This document shows positions 4,826 through 22,779 of a DNA stretch of 64,000 bases, in pieces (position 1 is the stretch's first letter; every line of letters begins with the position of its first letter). A program made the translations under genes and the position numbers. The stretch lies in NCBI GenBank assembly GCA_005799265.1, contig SYHD01000138.1, positions 1 to 64,000 on the forward strand, in the 5' to 3' direction. A model generated the notes under the pieces. It searched no databases, was not told the origin of the DNA, and saw nothing but the letters and a program-made list of their open reading frames with translations. This stretch comes from Planctomycetia bacterium (GTDB taxonomy: Bacteria > Planctomycetota > Planctomycetia > Gemmatales > Gemmataceae).

Positions 4826-6296
4826 TTACGCTGGGATCCACATCGCCATGAACGCATCGACCGGCGTCGCCTCCAAGCGCTGGCGATCCTGGCACAATTC
4901 CAGAATCGCATTGGCCTGTGCCGGCTTCAAGCGCGTCGCCAGGTTCTCCTCGAACTTCTTGACCAGCAACGGGACGCCTTCGCCGCGGCGACGACGATGG
5001 CCGAGCGGATATTCGACCTCGATCTTCGCCGTTGACGTGCCGTCCTTGAAAAAGACCTGCACCGCGTTGGCGATCGAGCGTTTGTCGGCTTCGAGATATT
5101 CGCGCGTATAGCGAGGGTCCTCGACGACTTGCATCTTGGCACGCAAGGCATCGATGCGCGGGTCGAGCGCGATTTTGTCTTCGTAATGATCCGCGGTCAA
5201 TGTGCCGAAGATGAGCGGGATGGCGACGATGTATTGCAAGCTGTGATCACGATCGGCCGGGTTGTGCAGCGGGCCGGTTTTGCTGATGATGCGGATCGCC
5301 GACTCCTGCGTCGTCAGCACGATGCGGTCGATGGCGTCGAGCCGATCCTTGACGAGCGGATGAAGTTTCATGGCGCACTCGGCGGCGGTCTGGGCGTGGA
5401 ACTCGGCCGGGAACGCGATTTTGAAGAGGACGTTCTCCATGACGTAGGAGCCGTAAGGGCGCGGCCGCTTGAGCGCGTTGCCCTTGAAGAGCACGTCATG
5501 GAAGCCCCACTTCGGGACCGTCAATGCGCTGGGCAGCCCCGGTTCGCCGTTGAGCGCCAGCAACGCTAGCCGTACGGCCCGGCTTGTCGCATCGCCGGCG
5601 GCCCATGATTTGCGCTGTCCCGCGTTCGGCGCATGCCGGTAAGTACGCAAGCTCTGGCCGTCGATCCAGGCGTGCGACAGGGCGTTGATGATTTGCTCCC
5701 TCGTACCGCCGAGCAGCTTGGTCGCGACCGCCGTGGAGGCGACCTTGACAAGGAGGACGTGATCGAGGCCAACGCGATTGAACGAATTTTCGAGAGCGAG
5801 CACGCCCTGGATTTCGTGCGCCTGGATCATCGCGGTGAGAACATCGCGCATCGTCAGCGAATTCCCGCCCCTCTCCCAGAGGGAGAGGGGGGCAATACGC
5901 ACGCCGGCACAGATAGTCCGTGACCGCCAGTATCGCGCCGAGGTTGTCCGACGGATGTCCCCATTCCGCCGCGAGCCAGGTGTCGTTGTAATCGAGCCAA
6001 CGGACTGTGCAGCCGATGTCGAACGCGCCTTTGACAGGATCGAGCTGATGGCTTGTCCCCGGCACGCGCACGCCGCCCGGCACGACGGTCCCCGGCACAA
6101 TTGGCCCGAGATGCTTGACGCAGGCGGGATATTGCAGCGCCAACAGTGCGCAGCCGAGGCTGTCCATCAGGCAATAGCGCGCGGGGTCGAACGCGGCGGC
6201 GCTCGTGATCGGCGTGTTGAGCACGTAGTCGGCGATGGCGACGAGCTCGGCGTCGGGTTCGGGTCGGGCGTTGCTGTCGGCGGCGTGTACGGACAT
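4826..6296 (-). pseudogene. prpD: MmgE/PrpD-family (2-methylcitrate dehydratase-like) gene broken at a palindromic repeat
   Basis: The N-terminal part starts at ATG 6296 and reads through [26 protein letters not shown] and a [19 protein letters not shown] motif typical of PrpD. At 5864-5893 lies a CCCCTCTCCC-type palindrome. After it the match resumes in another frame as [20 protein letters not shown] and continues to the end ([10 protein letters not shown], stop at 4826). The downstream frame is shifted by one base, so no single frame encodes the whole enzyme of about 480 residues. PrpD dehydrates 2-methylcitrate in propionate breakdown. No prpB or prpC is next to it. Either the insertion killed the gene or a sequencing error coincides with the repeat. 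Confidence 0.8.
5864..5893. repeat. CCCCTCTCCC-class palindrome inside the prpD gene
   Basis: GCCCCTCTCCC, a 3-base loop AGA, then GGGAGAGGGGG. It is the same class as the elements at 10446, 27945, 38341, 58946 and 59054. It lies exactly at the frame break of the PrpD gene. Confidence 0.8.
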
Positions 6297-6313
6297 AGGT
6301 GTTTTTTCCTTTT

Positions 6314-7156: not shown

Positions 7157-8962
7157 ATGAGCGTAATGTGCAACAGTTGTGGCCGGCTTTCGCAGGATCA
7201 CGAATTTTGCGACAGTTGCAATGTCGATCTGACGGTTACGACGGCGAGCTTGCCGCCCGAATGTTGCCCGCTGTCGCCGTCGGGAGTGCAGTTGACGTTG
7301 GAGCAGCGACAGATTCTGAGCTTTCCGGAAGCGTCGTTACTGGTTCAAGGGTTGGGCGAGGCGAGCCGGCTGCACTGGATCTCCGCGAAAGACTGGGTCG
7401 AGCATGGGCCTCGCATCGAGAAGCGTTTGTCCGTGCAATTTCCGTCGCTTCCCACGGGCCGTCTCATTGAGGTTGCGCAAGGCCGTTGGCTGATCTACGA
7501 CACGTCGGTGAACTCGGTGCGCGCCTGGACGCTGCCGCGCCTGGACGATCCGATCGCGGAACTGGAGCGCCTCTCGAAGGCTGTCCATTCCCTCGCACAG
7601 ACGCTGGGTTGGCTCCATCAGCATTCGCTGCTTTGGCTCAACTTCGATCCACAAACGCTGGAGGACATCGGCCCGCTCGAAGGGAAATCAGCCCCGGTGG
7701 GGCTTCGACGCTTGCACATCACGAATCTCGACCTCGAATTGTTCCCTTTCGGTGTGATGCCCGAGCGCGTTCGTGTTCATCCCAGTTATGCGGCTCCCGA
7801 AATTGTGCAATTTCGCGCCGTTGACATCGGGCCACGCACCGATGTTTACCACCTCACACTGTTCGTCTACTACTGGCTTGCCGGTCGATTTCCAGATGGA
7901 CTGTCGGGCGGCGGTCTGGAGCGGTATCACTACGAGCTGCCGTTCTTGCGCATATTCGCGCCTCATTTACCCGTGGGGATCATTCCGGTGCTCGAGCGGG
8001 GTCTGTCGATCCAGCCCGATCGCCGTCATGCAACGCCGCGCGCGTTCGCGCACGCTCTTGACGCCGGCATCGCGCGCGCCAAGGAGCGAAGCGCGGCGAT
8101 CGGGCCGTTTCGTTGGGATGTTGGCGGCGAGACGCGCGCGGGGCGTGCCAAACAAGAGCTGCAACGTGGCAACGAGGATACCGTTCTCATCAAGGACGAC
8201 GGCGCCGCCACGCTTGTCGCGGTAGCTGACGGTGTCTCGACATGCGATATCGGCTCTGGCGGTCTCGCCAGCGTCATGACCACCATCGTCATCGAAAATG
8301 CGTTCGGCGCGGGCTGCACGCATGAATCATTTGCGAAGCTCATTGCCACGGCAACTACGGGTGCCTCGACAGGCTTGCTCGAATGGGCACTCGCCCATAA
8401 TTGCCGGGCCGAGCTCGAAGCAGGCAGAGACCTCATGGGCACGACGCTGACGGTCGGCTGGCTGCAAGATTGCGAGCTCAGCATCGCCAACCTCGGCGAC
8501 AGCCGCGCGTACTTGGTGACGGCCGACGCCATCGAGCAATTGACCGTGGATGGCGATCTCGCCTCGGACCTCCTGTCGCAAGGGGTGGCTCCCGAGGAAG
8601 TCCTCGAACTCGGCGCCATGGCACGTTCATTGCGCGAGTGCGTCGGCGGCTGCACGCGCTCCCCCGACGGCGAACTGGCGATCCTCCCGGAGAGCACGCA
8701 GCCGAAGGTGACGCGCTGGCCGCTCGCGATTGGCGATGTGATCGTGCTGTGCTCCGATGGCCTGGTCGAGGAGGGCTTCTTTCTGGAGCCACACACCGTT
8801 GCCGCCATCGTCCGCGAAAGCAAGGATCGCCCCGCCGCGGAAATTGCTCACCTTCTAGTCGAGGCCGCCGATTCGTTGCAGCGTGTGCCGACGGTGCTCG
8901 AGCCGGACGGATTCGGCGACAATATTTCGTGTGTGGTGGTTAAGATTAAGGATACCGTTTAG
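7157..8962 (+). CDS. Zinc ribbon - pseudokinase - PP2C phosphatase fusion
   Basis: A 601-residue protein. A four-Cys ribbon opens it (C5, C8, C18, C21). Residues of about 50-325 resemble a protein kinase that has lost its catalytic residues: the HRDxKPxN loop reads LNFDPQTL and the DFG reads NLD, while the APE motif (YAAPEI) and the following Asp-Val-Tyr helix remain. Residues 335-600 are a PP2C phosphatase: NEDTVLI, VAVADGVSTCDIGSGG, MGTTLTVGW, IANLGDSRAYLV, VLCSDGLVEEG and a terminal DNISCVVV. The start is uncertain. ATG 7142 overlaps the repeat, so I prefer 7157. The stop TAG comes from the next palindromic repeat. It leads a co-directional series with VWA, FHA and kinase genes and is likely the dephosphorylating arm of that system. 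Confidence 0.88.
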   Translation: MSVMCNSCGRLSQDHEFCDSCNVDLTVTTASLPPECCPLSPSGVQLTLEQRQILSFPEASLLVQGLGEASRLHWISAKDWVEHGPRIEKRLSVQFPSLPTGRLIEVAQGRWLIYDTSVNSVRAWTLPRLDDPIAELERLSKAVHSLAQTLGWLHQHSLLWLNFDPQTLEDIGPLEGKSAPVGLRRLHITNLDLELFPFGVMPERVRVHPSYAAPEIVQFRAVDIGPRTDVYHLTLFVYYWLAGRFPDGLSGGGLERYHYELPFLRIFAPHLPVGIIPVLERGLSIQPDRRHATPRAFAHALDAGIARAKERSAAIGPFRWDVGGETRAGRAKQELQRGNEDTVLIKDDGAATLVAVADGVSTCDIGSGGLASVMTTIVIENAFGAGCTHESFAKLIATATTGASTGLLEWALAHNCRAELEAGRDLMGTTLTVGWLQDCELSIANLGDSRAYLVTADAIEQLTVDGDLASDLLSQGVAPEEVLELGAMARSLRECVGGCTRSPDGELAILPESTQPKVTRWPLAIGDVIVLCSDGLVEEGFFLEPHTVAAIVRESKDRPAAEIAHLLVEAADSLQRVPTVLEPDGFGDNISCVVVKIKDTV

Positions 8963-9018
8963 GCCCGCGTCGCAGATGCGGGATTTGCTCCACTCGCGTC
9001 TGCGACGCGGGGCTAAAC
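8957..9018. repeat. Palindromic repeat, GTTTAGCCCCGCGTCGCAGA class, supplying a stop codon
   Basis: Arms of 20 bp with one mismatch: GTTTAGGCCCGCGTCGCAGA at 8957-8976 and its partner ending GGGGCTAAAC at 9018. The TAG at 8960-8962 is the stop codon of the PP2C gene. A sister copy is at 27300-27366. Confidence 0.9.
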
Positions 9019-9035
9019 GAATGGAATGACATGCC

Positions 9036-10439
9036 ATGGCCGACGCGTTCATTCTGCGCTGGAAACTCGATCGACCGTATCTGGAACAGAATACGCCAGG
9101 GGACGTGTACGCGCTCGTGACGATTGAGCCGAACCCGGCGGCAGTCGTCAGCGCCCCGGCGGCAGCGTCGATTCCGACACACCTCATCCTGCTCGTCGAT
9201 GTCTCCGAATCGATGGACGTGCTGGTACGACGCGATCCGAATGCACAGAAGGTGGGCGCCGCCTCGGCCGAGGGGAAGGCCGCCCAGCGTGTTGTCTCTG
9301 ATGTCCCTAGCCGGCGCGAGATGGCGGCTGGCGTCGTCCAGAAGATGATCGAGCGATTACACGGCGACGATCTCGTCACGCTTATCGCCTTCGACGATAA
9401 GGCGCACGTTCTGGCGAAGGCTCTCAGCCCAAACGACATGGACGCTGTCTGTAGCGCCATCCAGAAAATTCACAGCGAAGGCGGCGGCGGCACGGCCATC
9501 GGCAAGGCTTTCGAGAGCATCCGCGACGTACTCTCAAGCATTGAAGACGCGCCGCGTACACGCAAGGTCGTCCTCCTCACCGATGGCGAGGACAAGGAGC
9601 CGGACAGCACGCTTGCTATCGCCAAGTCGGTCGGCTGGGACTTCAAATTGCCGATCGTCGCCTTCGGCACCGGCGAGTGCAAGATTGCTTTTTTGACGGA
9701 GCTTGCCAAGACGAGTCTCGCCGGCGCCTTCAACCACATTCGCGATGAGACGGTCGCGCAGAAGCTCTTCGGCCAGGCCGTCAACAGCCAGAAGAACATC
9801 CAGGCGACCAATGTTCAGCTTCAACTTTGGCTGTCGCCGGAATTGCAGGTGCGCGAGTTGTATCGCACCAAGCCCGAGATCCTTTTCGTCGGCGATCTGG
9901 TCCCCGACGCGAATCATCTGATTTCGCTTCGGCTCGAACAGATGGAACGCGGCAAGGCCTACGAGTTTCTTTTCCGCTGCACCTTGCCGGGCCGGGCGGC
10001 AAATCAACGTTTGCGCATCGCCAAGGCGACGCTAACCTACGATGTGCCGAGCATGCAGAAGAAGGACGAGAAACTGGAGTCGAATATCGTCGTCGAGTTC
10101 ACCGCCGACGCCAACCGCGCCGCCGAGCGCTCCGGCGACGTGCGCAAGGTGCTCGCTCGCGCGGAGGTCCAGCGTCAGGTACTTTTCCTGCAAGGTAAGA
10201 TCGATATCCTCAAGGCCGGCGGCGGCACGCAGCGCGATCGCGAAATCGTTGCCCGGTTGCTGGAAGCGCTCATCAAGAAGTTCGAGGACTTTGGCGATCA
10301 GGCGACCGCGAACCAGTATCGCGGCATGAAGGACGAGTTCACGCGCAAGGGGACGATCTCGCAGGAGATGCTCAATCGCTCGCTGGCGGCGTCGTCGCGC
10401 GCCGAGGAGATGGTGATGGCGGGGGATATTGATTTTTGA
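9036..10439 (+). CDS. VWA-domain protein (TerY-like position in a kinase/phosphatase cassette)
   Basis: A 467-residue protein without signal peptide. Residues 48-240 are a von Willebrand factor A domain with a complete metal-ion-dependent adhesion site: DVSES (Asp55, Ser57, Ser59), the GGGGTAIG threonine loop and LLTDGED. The rest has a beta-rich region (VQLQLWLSPELQVRELY) and a helical C-terminus. The charged 'DxSxS' is intact, so it should bind a divalent metal and a partner protein. Its place between a PP2C gene and an FHA gene, with a Ser/Thr kinase downstream, matches the VWA + PP2C + kinase triads of Ter-type systems, where VWA proteins organise complexes. Confidence 0.9.
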   Translation: MADAFILRWKLDRPYLEQNTPGDVYALVTIEPNPAAVVSAPAAASIPTHLILLVDVSESMDVLVRRDPNAQKVGAASAEGKAAQRVVSDVPSRREMAAGVVQKMIERLHGDDLVTLIAFDDKAHVLAKALSPNDMDAVCSAIQKIHSEGGGGTAIGKAFESIRDVLSSIEDAPRTRKVVLLTDGEDKEPDSTLAIAKSVGWDFKLPIVAFGTGECKIAFLTELAKTSLAGAFNHIRDETVAQKLFGQAVNSQKNIQATNVQLQLWLSPELQVRELYRTKPEILFVGDLVPDANHLISLRLEQMERGKAYEFLFRCTLPGRAANQRLRIAKATLTYDVPSMQKKDEKLESNIVVEFTADANRAAERSGDVRKVLARAEVQRQVLFLQGKIDILKAGGGTQRDREIVARLLEALIKKFEDFGDQATANQYRGMKDEFTRKGTISQEMLNRSLAASSRAEEMVMAGDIDF

Positions 10440-10445
10440 GGAATT

Positions 10446-10474
10446 TCTCCCCTCTCCCTCTGGGAGAGGGGAGA
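10446..10474. repeat. CCCCTCTCCC-class palindrome next to a ribosome-binding site
   Basis: TCTCCCCTCTCCC and GGGAGAGGGGAGA form a 13-bp stem with a 3-base loop. The right arm runs into GAGAGGAGA, which sits seven bases before the ATG of the FHA gene at 10486 and is its only plausible Shine-Dalgarno sequence. Confidence 0.85.
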
Positions 10475-10485
10475 GGAGAATCACT

Positions 10486-11319
10486 ATGCCCGCATGCAGC
10501 ATTTGTGGTGAAGCGATCCCGGCGGGGAGCCGAACCTGCGCCATGTGCGGTTCGAGCGCTGATGAACCCACGTCGCCGGCGTCGGGCCTGTTCCTGGAAA
10601 AGCCGGCGCGTCCCCTGCCCGCGAAGTTGCCGCCGGGGTGTCGTTACTGTCCTGGTTGCTACGAAATCTATGGCCCGGCCTTTACGGACTCGTATTGCAA
10701 ATGTGGCACCGAATTGTTGAGCGAGTTGCCGACGAAGTCCGAGACGATACCTATGGCCGCGCTGGCCGCTCCGCCGACCGCCGCGCTCGCCGATGTGGTG
10801 CCATTGGCGCCGCTGCTGGATGAAGAGCCGATGGCGCCATTCGACGGCGACCTGCCGCCGATGGCGCCGCTCCTGGACGATGTGCCCATGGCCCCGTTTG
10901 CCGAAGCCGCGCCACCGCCGGAGGATCCCGCCGACACGCCGGTGAAAATTCGTCTGGTCAAGCCGCCGACGGGAACGCCGAGTATCGTCCTGTACGGCCC
11001 CGACAAGCAGCCGTTGCAGTACTTTGCTCTGAACAAGGACGCGACGCTGATTGGCCGGCTCGACGCGGTGGCGGGCGTCTTTCCCGACATCGATCTCGAC
11101 CAGTGGTTCGACCGCGCCACCATCCGCAAGATCTCGCGTCAGCACGCCCTTATCCTGCGCACCCGCGCGAGCAAGACGTTTGTCCTTCGCCCCTTGATCG
11201 GCAACACCGGCACGCAGCTCGAAACCGAAATGCTCGAAGCCCAGCAAGACTACCCGCTCCAACCAGGCCACCGCATCATCCTCGGCGGAACGATACGGTT
11301 GAAGTTTGAGATCGCGTAG
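10486..11319 (+). CDS. Zinc ribbon - FHA domain protein
   Basis: A 277-residue protein starting at ATG 10486 (AGGAG seven bases upstream). It has an N-terminal four-Cys ribbon (C4, C7, C18, C21) and a second Cys cluster (CRYCPGCYEIYG ... CKCG). A low-complexity linker follows with repeats of the type PMAPL/PMAPF. A C-terminal forkhead-associated domain carries the key motifs IGR, ISRQHALI and the asparagine loop GNTGTQ. FHA domains read phosphothreonine, so this is the likely reader of the kinase encoded at 11991. It lies 46 bases after the VWA gene in the same direction. Confidence 0.88.
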   Translation: MPACSICGEAIPAGSRTCAMCGSSADEPTSPASGLFLEKPARPLPAKLPPGCRYCPGCYEIYGPAFTDSYCKCGTELLSELPTKSETIPMAALAAPPTAALADVVPLAPLLDEEPMAPFDGDLPPMAPLLDDVPMAPFAEAAPPPEDPADTPVKIRLVKPPTGTPSIVLYGPDKQPLQYFALNKDATLIGRLDAVAGVFPDIDLDQWFDRATIRKISRQHALILRTRASKTFVLRPLIGNTGTQLETEMLEAQQDYPLQPGHRIILGGTIRLKFEIA

Positions 11320-11356
11320 CCGCTGGCAGTGTGATAAGTTAATCGGAAGGGATCCT

Positions 11357-11779
11357 ATGAGCGCAGCCGCATTGACTCCGCGTGTTCGCACCATGGTGAT
11401 CTGCGATTCAGTCCGAAAGAGCAAGATGGAAGCCGGCGTATTTCACTTGAAGGGAGTTCGACAGGGGATGACGGCCCGCGCGTTTCCGTTGGCATCGGAA
11501 CTTTGGTTGTTTCTGTTGCTGTCGAGCCCACGCGCGGGTGTCTTCCCAGCATATGTTCGAGTGGCAAATGCCAGGACCGATCGGGCAGTCTTCCATGCCA
11601 ATCTAAATCCTCAACCCGAATTCACTCTGGACGGTCAGTATTTGACGTACAGCACGCCGATCCGATGTGAATTTCCTGATGAAGGAACATACACTGTCCA
11701 GTTGTCGTTTTTTCAAGCCGTGGGCATCGATGTTCTAAAAGGAGAGATGCCGTTCTCGATTTCCTTGGAAGGAGATTAG
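11357..11779 (+). CDS. DUF6941-like small protein
   Basis: A 140-residue protein with GGAAGGGA (11345-11352) before the ATG at 11357. Visible features are VICDSVRKSKMEAGVFHLKG at the start, LWLFLLLSSPRAG in the middle, a FPAYVRVAN strand and YTVQLSFFQAVGIDVLKGE near the end. This pattern (a beta-rich protein with 'CD.VR....G.F.L.GV') matches what I know as DUF6941; no biochemical role is established. It has no signal peptide. It is translated just ahead of the 66-residue protein and the kinase, so it is likely part of the same signalling unit. Confidence 0.75.
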   Translation: MSAAALTPRVRTMVICDSVRKSKMEAGVFHLKGVRQGMTARAFPLASELWLFLLLSSPRAGVFPAYVRVANARTDRAVFHANLNPQPEFTLDGQYLTYSTPIRCEFPDEGTYTVQLSFFQAVGIDVLKGEMPFSISLEGD

Positions 11780-11980
11780 ATGATGAACAACAAGACGCGC
11801 AAGATGGCGGCAACGTCGATTCACATTGATGGTGAACTTGTTCCGATTACCGACCCCGCTCATCAGGCCGCGGTCGATCGTCTATTTGAGTTGGGGGCGG
11901 CCAAGCTTAGCAAGGCCGACAGGATACTGCTCGCCAATTTGCCGAGTGCCAAAAAGCCCAAGGCACGCAAACGAAAATAG
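11780..11980 (+). CDS. Small basic protein of unknown function
   Basis: A 66-residue frame with GAAGGAGA directly upstream, starting at the base after the stop of the previous gene. It contains SIHIDGELVPITDPAHQAAV and ends in a very basic tail (KKPKARKRK). It belongs to no family I recognise. Tight spacing on both sides (1 and 10 bases) argues that it is a real member of the operon. Confidence 0.65.
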   Translation: MMNNKTRKMAATSIHIDGELVPITDPAHQAAVDRLFELGAAKLSKADRILLANLPSAKKPKARKRK

Positions 11981-11990
11981 TCGCCAGGCA

Positions 11991-13073
11991 ATGCCCTCCA
12001 AAAATACCAGCACCCTGAACGCCCAAACCTTCGAATGGAACAAGCGGCCCTACGTGCGCGCCGAAGTCCCGAGCGGCGACAACCGTGGCAAGGTTTTCAC
12101 GGTCGCGCAGCCGCTTGCGGAACGCTATGAGATCGTCAACTTCTTCGCGTCCGGCGGCATGGGGCTCCTTTTAGAGGGGCTCGATCAGCGCACGCAATGC
12201 CGCGTCCTTATCAAGACGAATCTGTTCTACGACGTGATCCCCTATGCAAAGGTGCGCGATCAGGAAGGCTTCACGAATCAACTGCGGTTGCCGAGGAAGA
12301 CACTGGAGATGGAGCGGCGCATCCTGGTGCTGTTGCGCAACGCCGGCTGCAACGCGGTGCCGCACCCGAACGATTTTGTTTACGACTCGAATCCGCATTT
12401 GGAGGGGCCGTACACGACCGAGGATCGCAAGGAGTGGAAGTACAACGATCAGGACATGCTCGACGCGGAGCCGTACTTGGTCATGGAAGCAGTGGAGGGG
12501 CAATCACTGGAGCAAGTGCTGGCGAGCACGCCGGGGCGTCGGCTCTCGGAGATGCGCGCCCTGCGGATCATGTGCCAGGTCGCGGACGTGCTGCACGTCT
12601 TGCATCAGCCGAAGCCGATGCGCGCGGGCATGACCTGGCAGCTCATCTATCAGGACCTGAAGCCGGCGAATTTGTTGATCTCCTCGCAGGATCGCGTGAC
12701 GGTGATCGATCTGGGCGGCTGCCAGCTTCTCAATCTCGATTCGGGCCAGAAGCTGCTGCCCGGCGCCTCCACGGCGGGTTACTGTCCGCCGGAGAGCGAA
12801 CAGCCGTACAACCTGTTGACGCCGGCGGCGGACGTGTACACGGTCGGCGCCAACCTGTTTCAATTGCTGACCGGCAGAAGCCCTCTCGAGTTCCTGCCGT
12901 CAGCGGTGGGAACGATGCAAGCGCGCGCGGCCCAGTTCGATTTCAAGCACCTCGACTGCCGGCCCGCGCTGAAGGAGCTGATACAGCGTTGCCTCGACCC
13001 GGAGCCGGCGAAGCGCTTCGCGGATGCGCAAACGTTGCAGCGGGCGATGAGCGCGATACTGCGGGGGATGTGA
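11991..13073 (+). CDS. Serine/threonine protein kinase, apparently active
   Basis: The ATG at 11991 gives 360 residues and lies 10 bases after the previous gene; the open frame upstream reads through that gene in another frame. The Hanks-type motifs are present: Gly-rich loop ASGGMGLLLEG (53-63), Lys75 in VLIK, Glu107 in the C-helix, catalytic loop YQDLKPANLL (Asp222, Lys224, Asn227; His of HRD replaced by Tyr), the DFG equivalent IDLGG (Asp240) and GYCPPE for APE. There is no membrane segment, so it is cytoplasmic. It is the only kinase of this cassette with the full catalytic set and is the likely writer for the FHA reader and substrate of the PP2C. Confidence 0.9.
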   Translation: MPSKNTSTLNAQTFEWNKRPYVRAEVPSGDNRGKVFTVAQPLAERYEIVNFFASGGMGLLLEGLDQRTQCRVLIKTNLFYDVIPYAKVRDQEGFTNQLRLPRKTLEMERRILVLLRNAGCNAVPHPNDFVYDSNPHLEGPYTTEDRKEWKYNDQDMLDAEPYLVMEAVEGQSLEQVLASTPGRRLSEMRALRIMCQVADVLHVLHQPKPMRAGMTWQLIYQDLKPANLLISSQDRVTVIDLGGCQLLNLDSGQKLLPGASTAGYCPPESEQPYNLLTPAADVYTVGANLFQLLTGRSPLEFLPSAVGTMQARAAQFDFKHLDCRPALKELIQRCLDPEPAKRFADAQTLQRAMSAILRGM

Positions 13074-13097
13074 TTAAACTATGGTCCACTCAATGGG

Positions 13098-13523
13098 CTA
13101 CGGAAGTGTCGACAAAGCGACGATGAATGGGAATGCCGGTTGGAGATTCCTGACCAGCCGATCATCCGCCGTGATGAACTCGCATTGCTCACGTTCTGCG
13201 AGTGCGACGTAAAGGCAGTCATAGACGCCGATGCGCATTTGCGACGAGATTGCGATGGCCCTCGGTGTAAGTTGGACTGCCGGGAACAACTGCGGCGCGG
13301 TCGTCATCACGTTGGTCCAGAGCGTCAGGGCGTCACCCGGTGTCAGGCGTCCTTGCCGTTCTGCACGAGTGAGGGCGTGAGCGACTTCGGTTGTGAAAAC
13401 ATCGGGAGCGAGGAGTTGATGGACGTTGGTGCGAGATTCGTCGCGCAGCAGTCGAGCATTCGTATCATCCTGCTCCGTGAGGACCCACTTGAGCGCTACG
13501 GATGAATCGATGACGTAGATCAT
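13098..13523 (-). CDS. vapC: PIN-domain toxin, VapC type
   Basis: A 141-residue PIN-fold ribonuclease with the acidic active-site residues Asp6 (YVIDSSVALKW), Glu46 (TTEVAHAL), Asp102 (VYDCLYVALA) and Asp120/121 (FITADDRL). VapC toxins cut tRNA or rRNA and are held by a co-expressed antitoxin. Here the toxin start overlaps the end of the small upstream gene by four bases (ATGA), as usual in vapBC operons. The pair lies on the opposite strand between the kinase and the 1594-residue pseudokinase, so it interrupts the signalling cassette. Confidence 0.9.
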   Translation of the reverse strand: MIYVIDSSVALKWVLTEQDDTNARLLRDESRTNVHQLLAPDVFTTEVAHALTRAERQGRLTPGDALTLWTNVMTTAPQLFPAVQLTPRAIAISSQMRIGVYDCLYVALAEREQCEFITADDRLVRNLQPAFPFIVALSTLP

Positions 13524-13753
13524 GGTTGCGGCAATTCACCACGGAACTCGCGGATGGCAGGCACCCCGATGTCGAGGACGCCGTGCTTGGCGAGAACCTC
13601 CTGTCGGATCCGTTCCGCTCGTTTCTGCACACGCAGCGCAATTTCCGGAGGAATCGGCTTGCCCGCGGCGACGCACTCGGCGACGAACTGGGCATCAGCC
13701 ATCAGATCGGCCGGAATCGTTGTGTCTGTTTCGGTTGCGTTCATGACTTCCAT
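13520..13753 (-). CDS. vapB: Antitoxin of the PIN toxin
   Basis: A 77-residue acidic protein with a helical centre (PIPPEIALRVQKRAERIRQE) and a short C-terminal tail. Starts at ATG 13753 or 13744 are both possible; AGGA precedes the first, GGAAG the second. It overlaps vapC by four bases. I assign it by position and size; no AbrB- or RHH-type fold is evident. Confidence 0.8.
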   Translation of the reverse strand: MEVMNATETDTTIPADLMADAQFVAECVAAGKPIPPEIALRVQKRAERIRQEVLAKHGVLDIGVPAIREFRGELPQP

Positions 13754-13843
13754 TCTGTCCTATTCGTGGAAGAGGGTCAAGTCCGTCCGAACATTTCCCG
13801 TTTCGCGCTTCATGCAGCCTGCGTCAATTGCCATAATATCCCC

Positions 13844-16800
13844 ATGAAGCTCATCGTCGGCGAACGTCTGGAGGGCGCTGGCCCCGCGCAGCAACCGGGC
13901 GGCTACGTCATCACCGGTGTCGTGCGCGAGACGGCCTGGCATGGGCTCTATGCCGCCAAGAAGATCTTCTACAACTTCGACTTTACCGCCAAGCGCGTGC
14001 GCGAGACCGATGAAGTCGAATGGCTCGACGTTTTCCTACGTGCCAACCGCTATCCCTATCTCGACGATCCCGCCTACGTGCAGGCACGCCGCGCTCTCGC
14101 GCGTGCCGAGGTGCGCGCGGTCCTGGGCAATCGGCACTCGAACCTTTGGCCCGAGCCGCTCGATCTGCTAGAGATCGAGAACACGCGCGATCCGTTCACG
14201 TTCGGCGACGATTGGGCGCGCGTGGGCGAGCCGATCCTCGTCTACACGCGGCCGACGGGGCGATTCACGCCGGAGTGGCGGCAGCAGATCTTGCCGGTTT
14301 CGTCGATCCTCTCCGTGCTGGCGGAGCTGCTGGAGTTCATGCGACAGGCGCACGCGGAAGGGTTGCTGTTGCTCGGCCTGGGCCCGTCGTCGCTATTGAT
14401 CGACGCCAGCGATCGCATCCATTACCTCGGCACCGAAATGGTGCTGTCGCAGCAGAGCGCCTTGCTCAAGGACCTGACCTCGTCCGCCGTCTGGCAACGG
14501 CTCTATCCCGCGGAACGCTTCGCCTCGGGCTACTCGGCGCCTGAATGCTTCGACCCGGCTCGGCGGCCCGACGTTCGCTCCGATCTCTACTCATGGGGCA
14601 CGCTTGCCTTCGGGCTCCTCACCGGCGCCGAATTGACCAAGCTCGCCCAGGAGCAAGGTCGGCCGTGGCAGGTCTTCGGCGACGCTCATTGGACGCAGCT
14701 TGAGAAAGTCCTCGGGCAGTTGCCGAAGAACAGCGTGCAGGGCTGGGCGGAGCAGCTCGGCGTCGAGGCGCGCGGCTTCTTGCAGGATTGGCCGCGCAAG
14801 TTTCTGACGGTGTTACGCATGCTCTTGGATGCCGAGCCGGGGAGGCGTCCATCGTCGGCGCAGGAGCTGCTGAAGTGGCTGGTCGATCCGCCGCCGCCGC
14901 CGGTCGCGGGGGTTGTCGCGCTGCACATCGAAGCGGACATGGCCAAGCTGCTGCTCGATTGCACTGGCGTCGAAGCGGGGCTGGACATTTCGATCCAATG
15001 CACGCGCAACGAGCCGGCGCGGCTGCCGTCGGATGGCGAGACCGTGGTCGAGGGGCCGGTGCGGCCAATCATTGGTTTGGATCGGTTGCCGTTGACGGAC
15101 CAGGCGATCTACTACACGGTCTTCACGCGGCGCAAACAGGACAACGGCATCGTTCACTCGCGTGGCGTCTCGGCGGAGTTGTGGCAACCCAACGAGAAGA
15201 ACCTGCGTGCCTGGGTCGAGGAGCAAGCTGTCGGCGCATTCGACGCGCAGAATATCCCGACCCGCGTCGGCATGGTGCTCGGCGCACTTGATTTCAGCCT
15301 GGTGTCGGACGCCCTCCTTGGTTCAACCATTCCACGATTACGTTCCTGGGTGCTGCGCCGCATCGAGCAGGTGTTGCGGGGCCAGGGATTCAACCCGGCC
15401 GTGGAGGGGAGCCTCTGGCGCTGTCTGCGCGATCCACACGTCGAGATGCGTCAGGCCGCGGCGACGACCCTCTGGAGCGCTCATCCCAACAAGTCCGATG
15501 CGCTCCTCGTACGCCTCATCGAAGCGCTCGAAGCGCCCCCGCTCGAGGCGCCGATCGCGCTGGCTCATTTTCTCCGGCATCTGCAATTGCCCGAAGAACG
15601 CATTCGTGCCACGCTACAGCGGCTTGAGACACAGCGTCCGACGGAGTGCCCACTGTGCAAGAAAACGCTGACGCACGGCGAGCGCGGCGCCCATCTGCAG
15701 ACAGAACACGGCTACGTGCTTTTCGAAGGCGACCTGCTGCCCGCCGAGGTCGTTATCGCCCGCTTGTGGGAACGCGTATTCGAGCGGCCCGACCGCGCGG
15801 CGCACGAGGAGCTTGTCGGCATCTATCTCAACCTGCCCGGGATAGGTGCAAATACGGATGCCGCCGCCGCTCGCTACGTCGAGGGACTCCATCGCTTCCT
15901 GCTCGGTCAGTCGAAGGAATCAGCGGCTTCGACCATCCCGGTCGCCTTGCCGTATTCGTCGATCCTCTCGTATCAGATGAACCTTCGGCACAGCGCATCC
16001 TTTACGCCGATTGTACGCACGCTGCTCGCCTCGCCTCACCAGCGTCTACGGGAGCTCGGCAGCCAGAGCGTGCTGCCGTCGTTTCAAACGCAGTTGCGCC
16101 TGCACCCCATGTTGTCGGAAATGCGACGTTTGCTCGCGACCGTTTCGAGCGACATCGGCCAGACCGATTTGCGAATCGATCTGTGCCGGCAGTTGGGGCA
16201 ACTTGGCGTCGATGCGGCGCTCGTCAACGACTGCATTGCCCAATTGCAAGAAGAGCGACTCGTCGTTTGTCCCGATTGTCAGGCCTCGGTCAAGTCGCGC
16301 GATCTGGAATTGCACATGCGGCGCGCGCACGAGGTATTCCAGTTTCGCGGCACGCGCCGCACCTACATCGACACGCGCGACGCCATTCTCAAAGCTGTGT
16401 GTACGTCACCGACCGATCTCGCCGCCTGGAAGAGCCTGCAATCGCTGGCGGCGGACAAGCATCCCCAGGACACGAATCGCTATCTGGTCGTTTGGCTTTA
16501 TCAATTCATCAAGGACGTGGACGCCGAACTGCGCGGCCCGGCCTTGACGGCGTTAGCGGACGTCCTGGTGTCCTCGGAGAGCGCGGCCTCGCTTTTGCCG
16601 TTGTTCGTCGGGCCGAGCAAGAACGCCTCGTGGGAGCTGCTCGGCCAGCGTCTTGGCCTGGAACTATGTACGCGCCTGCCGCCGCCGATCCCCGCGCCGG
16701 TCATTCCGGCGCTATTGCCGCTGTTGGATCATAAAGAGCTACCACGCCGCGTGCGTGAAAATGCGACGCTGACGCTGTTGCGCTCGGTGGATAGGGATCG

Positions 16801-18628
16801 CACACGGACAGCGGAGTTGCTGCGCGCCTACGTCGGGCAGTCGAGCAAAAAACGTGGCATGGAAAAGCTACAGCAACTTGAGCAACGCTTCGGACATTCG
16901 CCGGCGCTCGACCTCGTCGTACAGGAGCTCGACGATGAGCTTCGCATGGCCTGCCCGCGCTGCGAGATCGAATTGCGCAAAAAGGACATGGTTGCGCATC
17001 TCTGGGACAAACATCGGCTGATTCTCGACGGGCAGCGCGTGCGCGAGCCGTGGCGCGTCATCGAGGATTGGATCGTCGATTACGGTCTGGAAAAGGACCC
17101 GCAGGTGCTGCAGCGTTGTCGTGAACTCGCGCTCAAGGATGACCCGTCGGCCGGCCTGGCGCGGCTGCAACGGCTGCTCTATCGGCGCGGCTTGCGCGAT
17201 CGCGAATTGCTGACGGAGTTGCGCTCGCTCGTGAAGACGGACAAGGCGACGCTCTGCCCGCATTGTTGCGCTTCGGTTCCGATTGAAAGCGACCCGGAAC
17301 TTGAGCCGCTTGTTTTCGAGGAGTCGTGTCTGGAAGGCTACGGCTATAAACTCGAGGCCCTGGAACGCGGTCTGGTGCCAGCGCTGCGAATCGAATCGCC
17401 CGAGGCAATCCTCTTTCGCGGGCGAGAGCCGGGACGCTGGATGACGCGCGTCGGCGGCATCTTGTTGTTGACGGGGCCGCTGGTCGTGATAACCTTCATC
17501 GCGCTGCGTTCGCAGATCCAGCGGGAAACCCCATCGTCGGTTCTTGCCGGCCTGGCGTTGGGTATCGGCATGCTCGCGGCGGGCTTCCTCTATCTCATCT
17601 GGCCCGGTCCGCGCTCGGCGCAGGACCGGCTCATCAAGTCGGCGTGGAAGCTGCTCGTGCCGGAAATGCTGCAAGATCACATGGGCAAACGCGAGTGGAG
17701 CTTCCTCAACGGGCTTCTCCAGATGTCCGATGGGCTGACGAATTACCAGCCATCGCGGGATCTACTTCTGGAGTGTTGCGAGGAAGCCAGCGATGCTGCC
17801 AGGAACGAGGTCGCCGCACGCATCTGTTTGGCGTCGTTGAGCCGGCGCTGTCTTGCCGACATGCGCGAGCGCGGGCAGCGTCCGTTCGACATTGTTCTGA
17901 CGCTCGCGGCGGAGAGCTTCAAGGGAAAGCTGCCGTTGTCGTCTCTCAGCGAACTTTACGAGAACTTCCACGGCCGCGAACGGTCGGTGTGGACGAAGAG
18001 CGAGCTCAATTACCTGACGATCTTGACCGCCCATCACGCGGGCCTGGCGGAAGTGGATACCGACGATTGGCTGAACCTGGGCCGAGCGTTTCCCGTGTTG
18101 CATGCGGTCCTGAATCTCGAATCGCGCTGGCACTGGCTGCAATTTTTCGCCATCTGGACGGCGCGCTCGGGCAAGTTGTGGGAGAAAGCCGGCCCCGCGC
18201 TGACGATGCTCGAACTTGCCGAGGATCCCGCCGAGCACGAGGAGATTCTCGCCTACTATTCCGACGTGCTGCTGTTTGCGCCAGGGCCGAACCTCGTCGT
18301 CGGCAGCAAGGGCATCTGGCTCGAAGGGATCTGCGTCACCACATTCTCGGCGAATACGGAAATATCCGTGGAGCGAGGCGCCGCCGGCTTCGAGCTAACT
18401 ATTGGCAAGGTGTGTGTGCGCTACGACGAAAGCCCGCGTCCGTATCTCGACGAGATTAAACGCTGGCTGCGCTGGTACTTCTTCGAGTTCGTGCCGGTGA
18501 TTGCCAATGTAGCCCATCCGATGAGCGAGAGTCGGCATCGCATGTGGCAGCTCTCGAAGGTGGAATGCCCGGAGTGCAAGCGGCCGCTCGTGCCGTGCTT
18601 GGGCGATTTGGGCGTGGTGCTCCGTTGA
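13844..18628 (+). CDS. Giant pseudokinase with Cys2-His2-like fingers, helical repeats and two membrane spans
   Basis: The start is ATG 13844; the frame is open further up but over the antisense vapB. The product has 1594 residues. Residues of about 15-350 look like a protein kinase without catalytic residues: the loop equivalent to HRD reads LGLGPSSLLI and DFG reads YLGTEM, while YSAPE and the DLYSWGTLAFGLLTG helix are kept. A helical region with HEAT-like repeats follows (about 480-1130), interrupted by finger-like motifs at C602/C605 (then HLQTEH), C809/C812 (HMRRAH), C1037/C1040 (HLWDKH) and a CxxCC at 1138-1142. Two membrane spans lie near 1205-1225 and 1232-1253, and the C-terminus has VECPECKRPLVPC. 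It is probably the membrane-anchored scaffold of the cassette at 7157-13073. No named family. Confidence 0.82.
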   Translation: MKLIVGERLEGAGPAQQPGGYVITGVVRETAWHGLYAAKKIFYNFDFTAKRVRETDEVEWLDVFLRANRYPYLDDPAYVQARRALARAEVRAVLGNRHSNLWPEPLDLLEIENTRDPFTFGDDWARVGEPILVYTRPTGRFTPEWRQQILPVSSILSVLAELLEFMRQAHAEGLLLLGLGPSSLLIDASDRIHYLGTEMVLSQQSALLKDLTSSAVWQRLYPAERFASGYSAPECFDPARRPDVRSDLYSWGTLAFGLLTGAELTKLAQEQGRPWQVFGDAHWTQLEKVLGQLPKNSVQGWAEQLGVEARGFLQDWPRKFLTVLRMLLDAEPGRRPSSAQELLKWLVDPPPPPVAGVVALHIEADMAKLLLDCTGVEAGLDISIQCTRNEPARLPSDGETVVEGPVRPIIGLDRLPLTDQAIYYTVFTRRKQDNGIVHSRGVSAELWQPNEKNLRAWVEEQAVGAFDAQNIPTRVGMVLGALDFSLVSDALLGSTIPRLRSWVLRRIEQVLRGQGFNPAVEGSLWRCLRDPHVEMRQAAATTLWSAHPNKSDALLVRLIEALEAPPLEAPIALAHFLRHLQLPEERIRATLQRLETQRPTECPLCKKTLTHGERGAHLQTEHGYVLFEGDLLPAEVVIARLWERVFERPDRAAHEELVGIYLNLPGIGANTDAAAARYVEGLHRFLLGQSKESAASTIPVALPYSSILSYQMNLRHSASFTPIVRTLLASPHQRLRELGSQSVLPSFQTQLRLHPMLSEMRRLLATVSSDIGQTDLRIDLCRQLGQLGVDAALVNDCIAQLQEERLVVCPDCQASVKSRDLELHMRRAHEVFQFRGTRRTYIDTRDAILKAVCTSPTDLAAWKSLQSLAADKHPQDTNRYLVVWLYQFIKDVDAELRGPALTALADVLVSSESAASLLPLFVGPSKNASWELLGQRLGLELCTRLPPPIPAPVIPALLPLLDHKELPRRVRENATLTLLRSVDRDRTRTAELLRAYVGQSSKKRGMEKLQQLEQRFGHSPALDLVVQELDDELRMACPRCEIELRKKDMVAHLWDKHRLILDGQRVREPWRVIEDWIVDYGLEKDPQVLQRCRELALKDDPSAGLARLQRLLYRRGLRDRELLTELRSLVKTDKATLCPHCCASVPIESDPELEPLVFEESCLEGYGYKLEALERGLVPALRIESPEAILFRGREPGRWMTRVGGILLLTGPLVVITFIALRSQIQRETPSSVLAGLALGIGMLAAGFLYLIWPGPRSAQDRLIKSAWKLLVPEMLQDHMGKREWSFLNGLLQMSDGLTNYQPSRDLLLECCEEASDAARNEVAARICLASLSRRCLADMRERGQRPFDIVLTLAAESFKGKLPLSSLSELYENFHGRERSVWTKSELNYLTILTAHHAGLAEVDTDDWLNLGRAFPVLHAVLNLESRWHWLQFFAIWTARSGKLWEKAGPALTMLELAEDPAEHEEILAYYSDVLLFAPGPNLVVGSKGIWLEGICVTTFSANTEISVERGAAGFELTIGKVCVRYDESPRPYLDEIKRWLRWYFFEFVPVIANVAHPMSESRHRMWQLSKVECPECKRPLVPCLGDLGVVLR

Positions 18629-18660: not shown

Positions 18661-19833
18661 TCATTTACCAAGGATGCGATCCCAGCGTGCCTTCTGATAC
18701 GCCAGCTTCTCGGCCGTCGTCATCTTCGCGAAGTCCGGCTCGGCGGCCGCGTGTTTCTTCGTGTCGGCTTTCTTCTTAATCGGCAAACTGATCGTCGTCC
18801 CACTTCCGCCGTAGCTCATCACCCCGGTTTGCAGCGTCAGATCCTCGTCGAGCGTGCGCTGCGGTTTGACACCCAGGCCCTGCAGGACGCCGTGGTACGC
18901 TTTCACCGCTTCCTCGGCCGTGATTTCGCCGTCCGCGATCCAGCGCAGGAAACGCACGAAGGCGAGCTGGTTCTCGGCGTTGTTGATCTTGCGGCCAAAG
19001 AGGGCGACGCGAGCGCCGTACTTCTTCGCCTCGCTGAGTAGCTTGAAGGCGTCATAGGTGGTTCCCGCCGAGCCGCCGAGGATGCCGACGACAAGGTGTG
19101 GATCGTAGTGCACGAGATCTTCCATCGCCTTGGGACCGTGATAGACCATCTTCAGGAAAAGCGGTCGGCCTTTCGTCGTGACGCCGGCGAGCGTGCGCGC
19201 GATGACGTCGTTGATGAAGTCGGGAATCTTGCTCGGCTCGATGGATTCCGGGCAATTCGGGTCGAAGACTTCGAGAAAGTGGCGAAAACCCTTGCGCTCG
19301 GCTTCGAGGCGAAATTCCTTGTAGCGTTCCAGCGCCTCGCGATCGATGCCGCTGTCGTTCTGGAAGGTGATGCTGTAAAGGCCAAGATTGGCGCCGCGGT
19401 GCCGTTCGCCGTCCGCGCACGCGAGCTGCCCGCACTGGATGTGGTCGAGTGTCGCCGTGCGAAAGGGGAGGGCGGGCTGCGCGGGGCTGCGGCTGCCACG
19501 CATCACGTGGATGTCGGTCGAGTCATTGGCGCGGGCGGCAGGCGAAACATGGCTGGTGTCGAAGAGGCGTTTCTGGATGGTCAGCATGTCATTCGTGTGG
19601 GCCGACATGAGCATGATGTCGACGAGGCCCTGCGCGACGATTTGCTCGATTTGCTCGCGATATTCCTGCAAGCTGCGCTGGCGTGCCTCGCCGCCAGGCG
19701 CTTCGGGCGACCGGCCGGTGGCGACGACGCCGAAGCCCATGTCGGCGTCCTTGGCATCGGCAAGGATGAAATCCTTGGCGCGTTGTGGGTCGGCGTGGAT
19801 GCGGGACAGTTTTTCGTCGAGAGATTTTTTCAT
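18661..19833 (-). CDS. TIM-barrel protein, class I aldolase-like, of the microcompartment operon
   Basis: A 390-residue protein; the last gene of the operon. It has barrel-type motifs such as FGVVATGRSP, VDIMLMSAHTNDML, the strand RPLFLKMVYHG and a phosphate-site-like end VVGILGGSAGTTYDAF followed by VALFGRKIN. This order (late Lys-containing strand, then GGSAGT, then GRKI) recalls DhnA/LacD/DeoC class I aldolases, and database names for such proteins are usually only 'beta/alpha barrel protein'. A Schiff-base lysine may be in FLKMVYHG. It begins 17 bases after the dehydrogenase gene and has no evident encapsulation peptide. A role as a second aldolase is inference. Confidence 0.8.
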   Translation of the reverse strand: MKKSLDEKLSRIHADPQRAKDFILADAKDADMGFGVVATGRSPEAPGGEARQRSLQEYREQIEQIVAQGLVDIMLMSAHTNDMLTIQKRLFDTSHVSPAARANDSTDIHVMRGSRSPAQPALPFRTATLDHIQCGQLACADGERHRGANLGLYSITFQNDSGIDREALERYKEFRLEAERKGFRHFLEVFDPNCPESIEPSKIPDFINDVIARTLAGVTTKGRPLFLKMVYHGPKAMEDLVHYDPHLVVGILGGSAGTTYDAFKLLSEAKKYGARVALFGRKINNAENQLAFVRFLRWIADGEITAEEAVKAYHGVLQGLGVKPQRTLDEDLTLQTGVMSYGGSGTTISLPIKKKADTKKHAAAEPDFAKMTTAEKLAYQKARWDRILGK

Positions 19834-19850
19834 GGTCAGTCAACAAGCCC

Positions 19851-20861
19851 CTATTTTGCCCACGCGTTGCGAGGTATCGCGCGTTGCGCCGGTTTGCCTT
19901 CGACAACGGCTGTCGCCTTCGAGCCTCCCGTCAGGCGTGCCTCAACCTGCTCGATCGTCTCGCGCAACACGCGCGCCGAGTTTTGCAGGCCGAGCCGTTC
20001 CTTCGGCGTTAGTGCCAGTTCGATCTGTTTGCGCACGCCGCCACAACCGATTTCGGTCGGGACGGACAGGCACACGTCGCGGATGCCGTACGGTCCGCCG
20101 ATGAGCGAACTGATCGGCAGAACGCGGCGCGAATCGAGCGCAATCGCATGCACGACTTCACGGATCGACAGCCCGACCGCGAAGCCGGCGCCGCCTTTTT
20201 GCTTGATGACCTGAGCGCCGGCGCCCTTGGTCGCGTCGAACACTTCCTTGGCACAGACCGCATCGAAGCCGGGCCATTGCTCCAGCGGCAACCCGTTGAT
20301 AGTTGCGCTGGACCAGATGGGAACCATACTGTCGCCGTGTTCGCCGAGGATGAGGGCGTTGACCTGCGTAGCGGGAACTTGCAGCCGTTTGGCGAGATTG
20401 CTGCGAAAGCGTGTGGTGTCGAGCACCGTCCCCAGGCCGATGACGCGCTGCCAGGCCAGGCCAAGCCGTTTGACCGCCAGATAGGTCAGCACATCGACCG
20501 GATTGCTGACGACGATGACATAGGTGTTTTCTTTTAGTCCCGCGGCTTTCATCTGGTCGAGGATGCCGGTGAAGAGATCGACGTTGCGATTGATGAGATC
20601 GAGTCGGCTCTCGTCGGGCTTGCGGCGCAGCCCCGCGGTGATGACAACGATCTGGCTCGTCGCGACTTCGCTCATGTCGCCGGCGCTGATGCGCTGGTCC
20701 GCGACGAGACTTGCTCCGTGGAGCAAATCGAGCGCTTGCCCCTGCGCGAGTTCGGCGTTGGCGTCGATCAGGCAGATGCCGCTGACGACGCCGCCGCATT
20801 GCAGTGCATAGCCCGTCGAGCTGCCGACGAGGCCGCCGCCGCCGATGATGGAGACTTTCAT
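19851..20861 (-). CDS. Lactate/malate dehydrogenase family enzyme with malate-type specificity residue
   Basis: A 336-residue NAD-dependent 2-hydroxyacid dehydrogenase. It has the Rossmann start IIGGGGLVGSSTGYAL, an Asp (LIDAN) for NAD, VVITAGLRRKPDESR with Arg80, Lys81 and Arg86, and the catalytic GEHGDSMVP (His175). The residue at the position that is Gln in lactate dehydrogenases and Arg in malate dehydrogenases is Arg80 in this sequence. That favours a dicarboxylate or another bulky substrate over lactate. In microcompartment operons of this type the enzyme is placed to recycle the NADH made by the aldehyde dehydrogenase. No encapsulation peptide is obvious. Confidence 0.9.
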   Translation of the reverse strand: MKVSIIGGGGLVGSSTGYALQCGGVVSGICLIDANAELAQGQALDLLHGASLVADQRISAGDMSEVATSQIVVITAGLRRKPDESRLDLINRNVDLFTGILDQMKAAGLKENTYVIVVSNPVDVLTYLAVKRLGLAWQRVIGLGTVLDTTRFRSNLAKRLQVPATQVNALILGEHGDSMVPIWSSATINGLPLEQWPGFDAVCAKEVFDATKGAGAQVIKQKGGAGFAVGLSIREVVHAIALDSRRVLPISSLIGGPYGIRDVCLSVPTEIGCGGVRKQIELALTPKERLGLQNSARVLRETIEQVEARLTGGSKATAVVEGKPAQRAIPRNAWAK

Positions 20862-20871
20862 GTTGATAACC

Positions 20872-21300
20872 TCATCTTGTCCAATCTTCGACCATAAGCC
20901 CTGGGATTAGCTTGAAATCACGCATATTCCTGCTGACCAGGGTGGTGGCTTGATGTGCCAGAGTAATCGATGCAATTTTCAAGTCGTTTGCATTCAGCCG
21001 ACGGAACTGTCTGCGAAGGGATTGATATCGAACGGCAGCTGGTTCATCAAAATCAACCATCGGGAGTTTGCAATAGAGCTTGAGTTGCCGGCGCAGCCGC
21101 TGATAGGCTTGGATTTCTTGAGACATATTTTTCGCACGGCCGATGTACGCGGTCCAGCCGCGCATCTGTTCGTCGAAGCTGATAATGCTTGCGTGAATTT
21201 CGCTGGGCGGATACTGGCTGAACCGCTGGCGAAGTTTCTGGCTCACGGCACTCATTTCCCATTCCACGAGGCTCAGAATGTCGGTGTCAAGAACGACCAT
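20872..21300 (-). CDS. vapC: PIN-domain toxin, VapC type, inside the microcompartment operon
   Basis: A 142-residue PIN protein with Asp5 and Asp7 (LDTDILSL), Glu44, Asp106 (ANDLKIAS) and the terminal NMRDF motif. The start overlaps the upstream small gene by 14 bases. It ends only 10 bases before the start of the dehydrogenase gene, in the same direction, so it must be transcribed with the microcompartment genes unless it has its own promoter. It has no metabolic link to them and looks like a later insertion into the operon. Confidence 0.88.
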   Translation of the reverse strand: MVVLDTDILSLVEWEMSAVSQKLRQRFSQYPPSEIHASIISFDEQMRGWTAYIGRAKNMSQEIQAYQRLRRQLKLYCKLPMVDFDEPAAVRYQSLRRQFRRLNANDLKIASITLAHQATTLVSRNMRDFKLIPGLMVEDWTR

Positions 21301-21508
21301 TCTTCACTTTTCGCTTTCTTTTCGGCCTTGGCTTTTGCGATTCTCGCCACTTCCGTCCGAGTTTCATTGCTTCCTCAAAATGCGAATCGTTCGCGAATGC
21401 GCCGAACCACTCCTCCCACCATGGCGTGCCGTCCTCGTGCTTCAGCTTGGCCACTTCAGCCTCCAATGAGGCCAGCCGTTTTTCCAATTTTTCAAGAGCT
21501 GACATCAT
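21287..21508 (-). CDS. Probable antitoxin of the embedded PIN toxin
   Basis: A 73-residue protein: a coiled coil at the start (LEKLEKRLASLEAEVAKLKH), a Trp-rich centre (PWWEEWFGAF) and a very basic tail (KPRPKRKRKVKNGRS). It overlaps the toxin gene by 14 bases. The assignment rests on position; the fold is not a recognised antitoxin type. Confidence 0.72.
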   Translation of the reverse strand: MMSALEKLEKRLASLEAEVAKLKHEDGTPWWEEWFGAFANDSHFEEAMKLGRKWRESQKPRPKRKRKVKNGRS

Positions 21509-21541
21509 TCTCTCCTTTACAGAGGTTTGGCGCTCATTATA

Positions 21542-22444: not shown

Positions 22445-22460
22445 GATTATCCTCCTGCCG

Positions 22461-22493
22461 CTTGCGGCGTAGCAATTGTTGCTGCGCCGCGAG
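22461..22493. repeat. Small palindrome upstream of the aldolase ribosome-binding site
   Basis: CTTGCGGCGTAGCA pairs with TGCTGCGCCGCGAG (two mismatches) around ATTGT. It falls in the 56-base gap between the BMC-P gene and the aldolase gene and may stabilise or tune the messenger there. Confidence 0.55.
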
Positions 22494-22500
22494 CCGCTAG

Positions 22501-22779
22501 TTATTTGATCTCGATCGTGTCCAAGATGCCTGCACAATACGCGTCGATTGGCTTGCGTTGCGGATGAAACGGCATCATCGCCTCGACGCCTTCGCTGACG
22601 GCGATTCGCTGACCGAGCCCCACGCCGAGTTCATCGAGAATCACGAGATCCTCGCCGTCAGGGACGTTCTTCTTGAGCGCCTTCAGGCTGAACGGCACGC
22701 CGACAATCCAGCGATAACCCGCGAGCGACGGATGGCAGCGCGAGAGCGTCACGGTGCCGATGACTTCAGCGATGCGCAT
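22501..22779 (-). CDS. BMC-P (EutN/CcmL-type) pentameric vertex protein 1
   Basis: A 92-residue shell protein that begins MRIAEVIGTVTLSRCHPSL, the typical EutN/CcmL opening, and keeps WIVGVPF, DLVILDELGVGLGQRIAVSEG and a short C-terminal strand. Pentamers of this fold cap the vertices of the polyhedral shell. The start overlaps the upstream unknown gene by 14 bases, indicating translational coupling. It is one of three BMC-P paralogues in the operon, the usual number for this locus type. Confidence 0.92.
   Translation of the reverse strand: MRIAEVIGTVTLSRCHPSLAGYRWIVGVPFSLKALKKNVPDGEDLVILDELGVGLGQRIAVSEGVEAMMPFHPQRKPIDAYCAGILDTIEIK

Follow-up and report, generated by a model that had tools for sequence, protein, structure and literature searches.

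Planctomycetes encode very many protein kinases and have few known circuits, and pseudokinases, which are well studied in eukaryotes, have rarely been studied in bacteria. The locus at 7157-18628 of the window (the whole 64,000-nt stretch of DNA analysed here, from contig C94 of a 6.47-Mb assembly that is 87% complete and has the Gemmataceae assemblies Baikal-deep-G160 and G178 among its relatives) therein raises the question of whether its run of kinase-related genes constitutes one signalling unit and, if so, which of the genes belong to it. All genes named in the first-pass annotation were recovered at the positions that it had given (Table 1). The genes from PP2C to kinase all lie on the plus strand, with intergenic gaps of 73 nt or less, and the giant gene is found on the same strand beyond the antisense VapBC pair. 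The module consists of five of these genes, encoding the zinc ribbon-pseudokinase-PP2C protein, the VWA protein, the zinc ribbon-FHA protein, the active kinase and the 1594-residue giant protein. It is almost certainly a real signalling unit: one branch of the Gemmata family has retained the set throughout, and a planctomycete far from that branch has it again with the gene order unchanged.

Table 1. Genes of the locus (positions in the window) and parts of the giant protein (residue numbers).
Feature	Position	Strand	Evidence or remark
Zinc ribbon (CxxC...CxxC)-pseudokinase-PP2C phosphatase, 601 aa	7157-8962	+	PP2C_2, E=8e-8
VWA-domain protein, 467 aa, MIDAS (DxSxS...T...D) intact	9036-10439	+	VWA_2, E=7e-13
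Zinc ribbon-FHA phosphothreonine reader, 277 aa	10486-11319	+	FHA, E=4e-7
DUF6941-like protein, 140 aa; cassette gene, outside the module core	11357-11779	+	E=0.0016, under the Pfam cut-off
Basic protein, 66 aa, partner of the DUF6941 gene	11780-11980	+	directly 3' of a DUF6941 gene in L061, L073 and L060
Active Ser/Thr kinase, 360 aa, YQDLKP catalytic loop	11991-13073	+	Pkinase, E=2e-22; best start ATG 11991
VapC-type PIN toxin, passenger	13098-13523	-	PIN, E=1e-11
VapB-type antitoxin, 77-aa ORF, passenger	13520-13753	-	4-nt overlap with the PIN gene
Giant protein, 1594 aa	13844-18628	+	ATG 13844; pseudokinase/solenoid/membrane protein
Giant, pseudokinase	residues 1-348		profile evidence, motif loss
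Giant, FN3-like domain	residues about 349-470		
Giant, three C2H2-type fingers	residues 602, 809, 1037		within alpha-solenoid stretches
Giant, two CxxC motifs	residues 1138, 1575		
Giant, membrane hairpin, two spans	residues about 1200-1250		followed by a helical and beta C-terminal part

A larger unit of seven genes, as first suggested, had to be given up, since neither the DUF6941/basic pair nor VapBC follows the module; their distributions differ from that of the module, and they appear as passengers. The DUF6941-like gene and its 66-aa partner form a two-gene cassette that is found elsewhere, away from the module, in G005, G009 and G022. For the VapC-type PIN protein, no homologue was found among the fetched module loci besides that of the window, and VapB had no match among the relatives' loci examined. 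A second PIN-domain gene lies near the module, at 20875-21300 on the minus strand (E=3e-9).

The orthologue alignments, with sequences from up to 13 genomes, show a uniform residue status for the module proteins, with catalytic and ligand residues kept, and lost in the pseudokinases, which argues that the genes represent more than chance. The kinase (68-84% identity among orthologues) retains the Gly loop, the Lys, YQDLKPAN (with Ser for Ala in one case) and DLG in 13 of 13 orthologues; judging from these conserved catalytic residues, it is probably an active Ser/Thr kinase, as proposed earlier. Among the 95 family genomes, no kinase match below 1e-40 was found outside the 13 carriers. The kinase domain extends almost to the end of its protein (matches up to residue 356-359 of 360) and CxxC motifs are absent, so that there is neither a zinc ribbon nor an OB fold at the C-terminus. 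The VWA orthologues are 59-82% identical and conserve the DxSxS, T and D of the MIDAS. Their nearest NCBIfam models are marine_srt_targ and BatB-like, and the VWA protein had no match among the PADLOC models at E values up to 10, in a library that may not include a TerY model. In the FHA protein, the GR, SRxH and NTGT residues are conserved among orthologues. Membership of BREX/PglW, PD-T4-6 or other defence kinases was considered and rejected, the PADLOC matches of the kinase and the PP2C protein being to generic kinase domains only.

Two further proteins carry kinase-like domains at their N-termini. In the PP2C protein, a CxxC...CxxC ribbon is followed by a kinase C-lobe, the N-lobe being short and unrecognizable. 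The HRDLKP position reads WLNFDP or a variant thereof and the DFG position reads NLD or a variant, so that the HRD Asp is replaced (by Asn, Thr or Pro in most orthologues) and the DFG Asp is missing in all of them. The APE Glu and the alpha-F Asp are retained, and the metal-site Asp residues of the PP2C domain in the same protein are intact. In the giant, the Asp residues of HRD and DFG are absent from the N-terminal domain in every orthologue, and APE and the alpha-F Asp are retained. In profile-against-profile comparisons (probabilities in %), the kinase matched the giant N-terminus at 98 (E=6e-13) and the PP2C N-terminus at 94 (E=1e-7), and the two N-termini matched each other at 95; control pairs nearly all scored 3 or less, the exception, at 17, being a pair in which both members come from the giant. 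Searches of PDB profiles with either N-terminus returned kinases only. Taken as sequence evidence, these comparisons make kinase homology of both domains very probable, and the two pseudokinases of the first-pass annotation are upheld by profile homology together with the absence of the HRD and DFG Asp residues from all orthologues. The label 'pseudokinase' refers to sequence profiles and motif loss, not to fold: the structure prediction that had been suggested as a check gave, for giant residues 1-480 in AlphaFold (six-row alignment), a model with a pLDDT of 42.5, too poor to use and uninformative on the kinase fold.

Of the 95 genomes of the Gemmata family, 13 encode the full-length giant, and precisely these 13 encode the kinase; within a 59-relative sample, the FHA protein occurs in the same 13, and the PP2C and VWA proteins in 11 of these. 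The two genomes in which PP2C and VWA were not found are G001 and G010; in one of them the assembled sequence stops at the FHA gene, and the other assembly is 79% complete. In the rpoB tree, from which the rows of G015 and G016 were ignored as apparently misread, the 11 carriers with a usable rpoB form a single clade (support 100/99). The joint distribution thus reflects one acquisition and faithful retention rather than repeated co-gain, and the single clade weakens co-occurrence as proof of shared function.

Gene order carries additional information. In most of the carrier genomes the module genes are scattered, and in G026 no adjacency is left, all five genes being unlinked; tight co-expression is therefore not required in many of the relatives. 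The adjacencies that do survive are always a piece of the order in the window: PP2C-VWA in G003, G005 and G008, PP2C-VWA-FHA in G035, all four genes from PP2C to kinase in G002 and G006, FHA-kinase in G001, G010 and G032, and kinase-giant in G009. Only the window has all five in a row among the genomes examined. The simplest reading is that the window keeps the ancestral order, into which the DUF6941/basic cassette and VapBC were inserted later.

The giant is the least conventional component. Its pseudokinase is among its most conserved parts, with 48-57% identity across genera versus 21-36% for the solenoids. Four finger motifs had been annotated; fingers are indeed present, as three of the C2H2 type accompanied by two CxxC motifs, and the two membrane spans were recovered as described. 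All of these elements, the two-span hairpin included, are conserved among full-length giants, a simple hydropathy cut-off calling one span only in G003, G005 and the partial G008. The predicted structure of residues 800-1594 (pLDDT 65) would comprise an alpha-solenoid, a finger, the hairpin, a further solenoid and a small beta domain. A fold search with this model yielded generic alpha-solenoid matches, none at E<=0.001, the PDB profile search with the C-terminal and FN3-like parts gave no match, and domain and PDB profile searches recognized no enzyme or channel family in the giant. A stand-alone form of the C-terminal half, without the pseudokinase, is encoded in many other genera of the family and has retained finger three along with the two CxxC motifs and the membrane hairpin; among the forms read, those of G022 and G033 also have the second finger. 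The giant thus may have grown at its N-terminus, from a one-finger stand-alone protein through a two-finger form to one with three fingers and a pseudokinase.

The short form has a neighbourhood of its own. In six genomes (L050, L055, L056, L058, L059 and L049) it is preceded by members of one gene family, which in the two members scanned is DsbH/DUF255 thioredoxin-like, suggesting that the DsbH/DUF255-type gene and the short giant are a separate conserved pair. Kinases near the giant (G035, G010) or near the short form (G014), and a PP2C gene beside the short form (G029), were dropped as links because chance proximity is plausible with so many kinases.

Outside the family, a profile search for the zinc ribbon-pseudokinase-PP2C type across 392 genomes of the phylum recovered it, beyond the window's own genome, only in G241, where it has no module neighbours, and in G174, which belongs to another class. 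In G174 (locus L123) the zinc ribbon-pseudokinase-PP2C gene is followed, in the same order as in the window, by genes for VWA (E=1e-41), zinc ribbon-FHA (3e-18), a kinase (1e-32) that also has the YQDLKP loop and, in fifth place, a second kinase-like protein. A radical-SAM gene comes directly after the latter, and each of the six genes overlaps its successor by exactly 4 nt. The G174 kinase groups with those of the clade against seven others (SH-aLRT 98, on a long branch), and the second kinase-like protein resembles the giant N-terminus weakly but in register, with 0 of 2000 shuffles scoring as high and an hhalign probability of 9. No module of this type was found in the 22 other genomes of the class of G174, and plasmid searches with PP2C, VWA, the kinase and the second pseudokinase of G174 returned generic PP2C or kinase matches only. 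The strongest case for treating the five activities as one unit comes from the G174 operon. The conserved neighbourhood expected by the first-pass annotation is accordingly present in part in the clade relatives and in full in one distant genome, in its five-gene but not its seven-gene version; the proposal that kinase, phosphatase, reader and scaffold belong to one unit holds, the giant being the putative scaffold. Downstream in L123, positions 11768-15455 encode radical-SAM (Fer4_12), coiled-coil and AAA+ ATPase proteins, and the AAA protein matches the PADLOC family PDC-M37B (E=7e-31).

How does this set compare with known systems? Like the TerY-P triad, the module encodes together a VWA protein with an intact MIDAS, an active PP2C and an active kinase, with zinc ribbons in the set. 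However, TerY-P is defined by a C-terminal zinc ribbon or OB fold on the kinase (PMC11090510), and the module is not filed there because its kinase has neither, its zinc ribbons being on the PP2C and FHA proteins; in addition, it contains an FHA protein, a PP2C-fused pseudokinase and a giant membrane pseudokinase. The earlier reading as a planctomycete variant of the triads in Ter-type systems is thus not supported as it stood. In the threonine phosphorylation pathway of the type VI secretion system (T6SS), PpkA, PppA and Fha likewise combine kinase, PP2C and FHA reader, acting together on the assembly of a membrane machine (PMC3953482, PMC12607579), and the PpkA of P. aeruginosa carries a VWA domain. 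By contrast, the kinase and VWA of the module are separate soluble proteins and its membrane part is a solenoid pseudokinase; the annotated genes surrounding the module included no T6SS structural gene. The PP2C-kinase fusions of Pseudomonas and Deinococcus, published in 2005 (PMC1262709), also join a PP2C and a kinase-type domain in one chain, but with the PP2C first, whereas in the module protein it comes last, after a zinc ribbon and an inactive kinase domain. In the GAP1-N2 systems, a zinc-ribbon kinase, a PP2C and a stand-alone vWA protein are neighbours; unlike the module, these systems are GTPase-centred and actinobacterial and have no FHA protein, pseudokinase or membrane giant (PMC7159879). 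With respect to vWA-MoxR ternary conflict systems, 7157-18628 contains no AAA+ ATPase gene, and one is found downstream in G174. Since PP2C-kinase fusions (PMC1262709) and inactive kinase domains in vWA systems, the latter published in 2020 (PMC7159879), are known, the first description of the fusion and the giant pseudokinase as undescribed was too strong. As far as the searched literature goes, what is new is the combination, the joint presence of a phosphatase-borne and a membrane-borne pseudokinase, and a gene order conserved over two classes.

A unit that combines a kinase, a phosphatase and an FHA reader points to a mark that can be removed again and is recognized through binding, and the membrane-hairpin solenoid with its catalytically dead kinase domain points to the giant as the platform. 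By analogy with PpkA, PppA and Fha, which control T6SS assembly in this manner, we propose an assembly switch at the membrane: a five-gene phospho-switch with FHA read-out on a membrane scaffold, to which we give a probability of about 0.5. The soluble kinase would phosphorylate Ser/Thr residues on a complex built at the membrane by the giant, the FHA protein would bind the phosphothreonine and recruit or lock partners, and the PP2C would remove the mark, with the VWA protein acting as a Mg-dependent adaptor. The pseudokinases would be non-enzymatic docking or allosteric modules, one directing the phosphatase and the other tying the membrane solenoid to the kinase system, and together they may set the threshold for assembly of the membrane-anchored complex. 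More tentatively, one active kinase might be framed by two dedicated pseudokinases, one joined to the opposing phosphatase and one membrane-anchored on a solenoid, such that kinase and phosphatase compete for the FHA-read platform; if so, G174, with its free-standing second pseudokinase and the radical-SAM gene in its operon, would represent the older, unfused form.

Several other readings would account for parts of these data. The module could be a TerY-P-like stress or antiphage system, in which the triad, as a sensor of metal or of invasion, would switch a linked effector, the giant being effector or sensor. The TerY-P triad, which has the same three activities, does occur in defence contexts (PMC11090510, PMC7699616), and the radical-SAM gene and more distal AAA+ ATPase of G174 are of kinds found in vWA conflict systems (PMC7159879); yet the kinase architecture and the PADLOC results described above speak against this, and in Gemmataceae the genes are a vertically kept, dispersed clade core, unlike mobile defence islands, so we regard it as improbable. 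Slightly less probable still is that five signalling genes were gained once and are neighbours by history only, as clade-specific core genes without a common mechanism. Such a history would fit the single clade behind the joint distribution, the scattering of the genes in most relatives and the kinase-rich genomes of planctomycetes, but it is hard to reconcile with the recurrence, in a second class, of an identically ordered set of these five components joined by 4-nt overlaps, with conserved adjacencies that are all pieces of one order, and with catalytically dead domains under strong constraint.

To the same low degree of likelihood, the giant could be the regulated machine itself, for instance a transporter in the membrane or a protein of the envelope whose sensor is the pseudokinase, rather than the scaffold of the module. 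The widespread stand-alone form, often beside a DsbH/DUF255-type gene, implies that the C-terminal part has a function of its own; nevertheless, a protein with only two membrane spans and no recognized enzyme or channel family makes a doubtful machine. Under the preferred reading, a phospho-switch on a membrane scaffold, one heritable set comprises the kinase and its phosphatase, the reader and adaptor, and the protein that is the probable target at the membrane, and the substrates are therefore directly testable. One active kinase accompanied by two pseudokinases, the first carried by a phosphatase and the second by a membrane protein, would provide a tractable bacterial case, and the stepwise N-terminal growth of the giant would illustrate a way in which a kinase circuit may recruit a scaffold.

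The surroundings of the module have features of their own. Beside the giant, at 18661-25119 on the minus strand, lies a microcompartment-type sugar-aldehyde locus with genes for two EutN/CcmL vertex proteins, an aldehyde dehydrogenase, a class II aldolase and a lactate/malate dehydrogenase-type protein, parts of which also adjoin the giant in G001, G004 and G006. Upstream, an MmgE/PrpD gene (4829-6300, minus strand) is split over two frames, and a palindromic repeat (CTCCCTCTGGGAGAGGG) is found near the break, around 5869-5889. This repeat has 11 matches in the window, compared to 0.05 expected (up to 3 mismatches, both strands, palindromic sites counted twice), and one of its sites, at 10450-10470, lies between the VWA and FHA genes.
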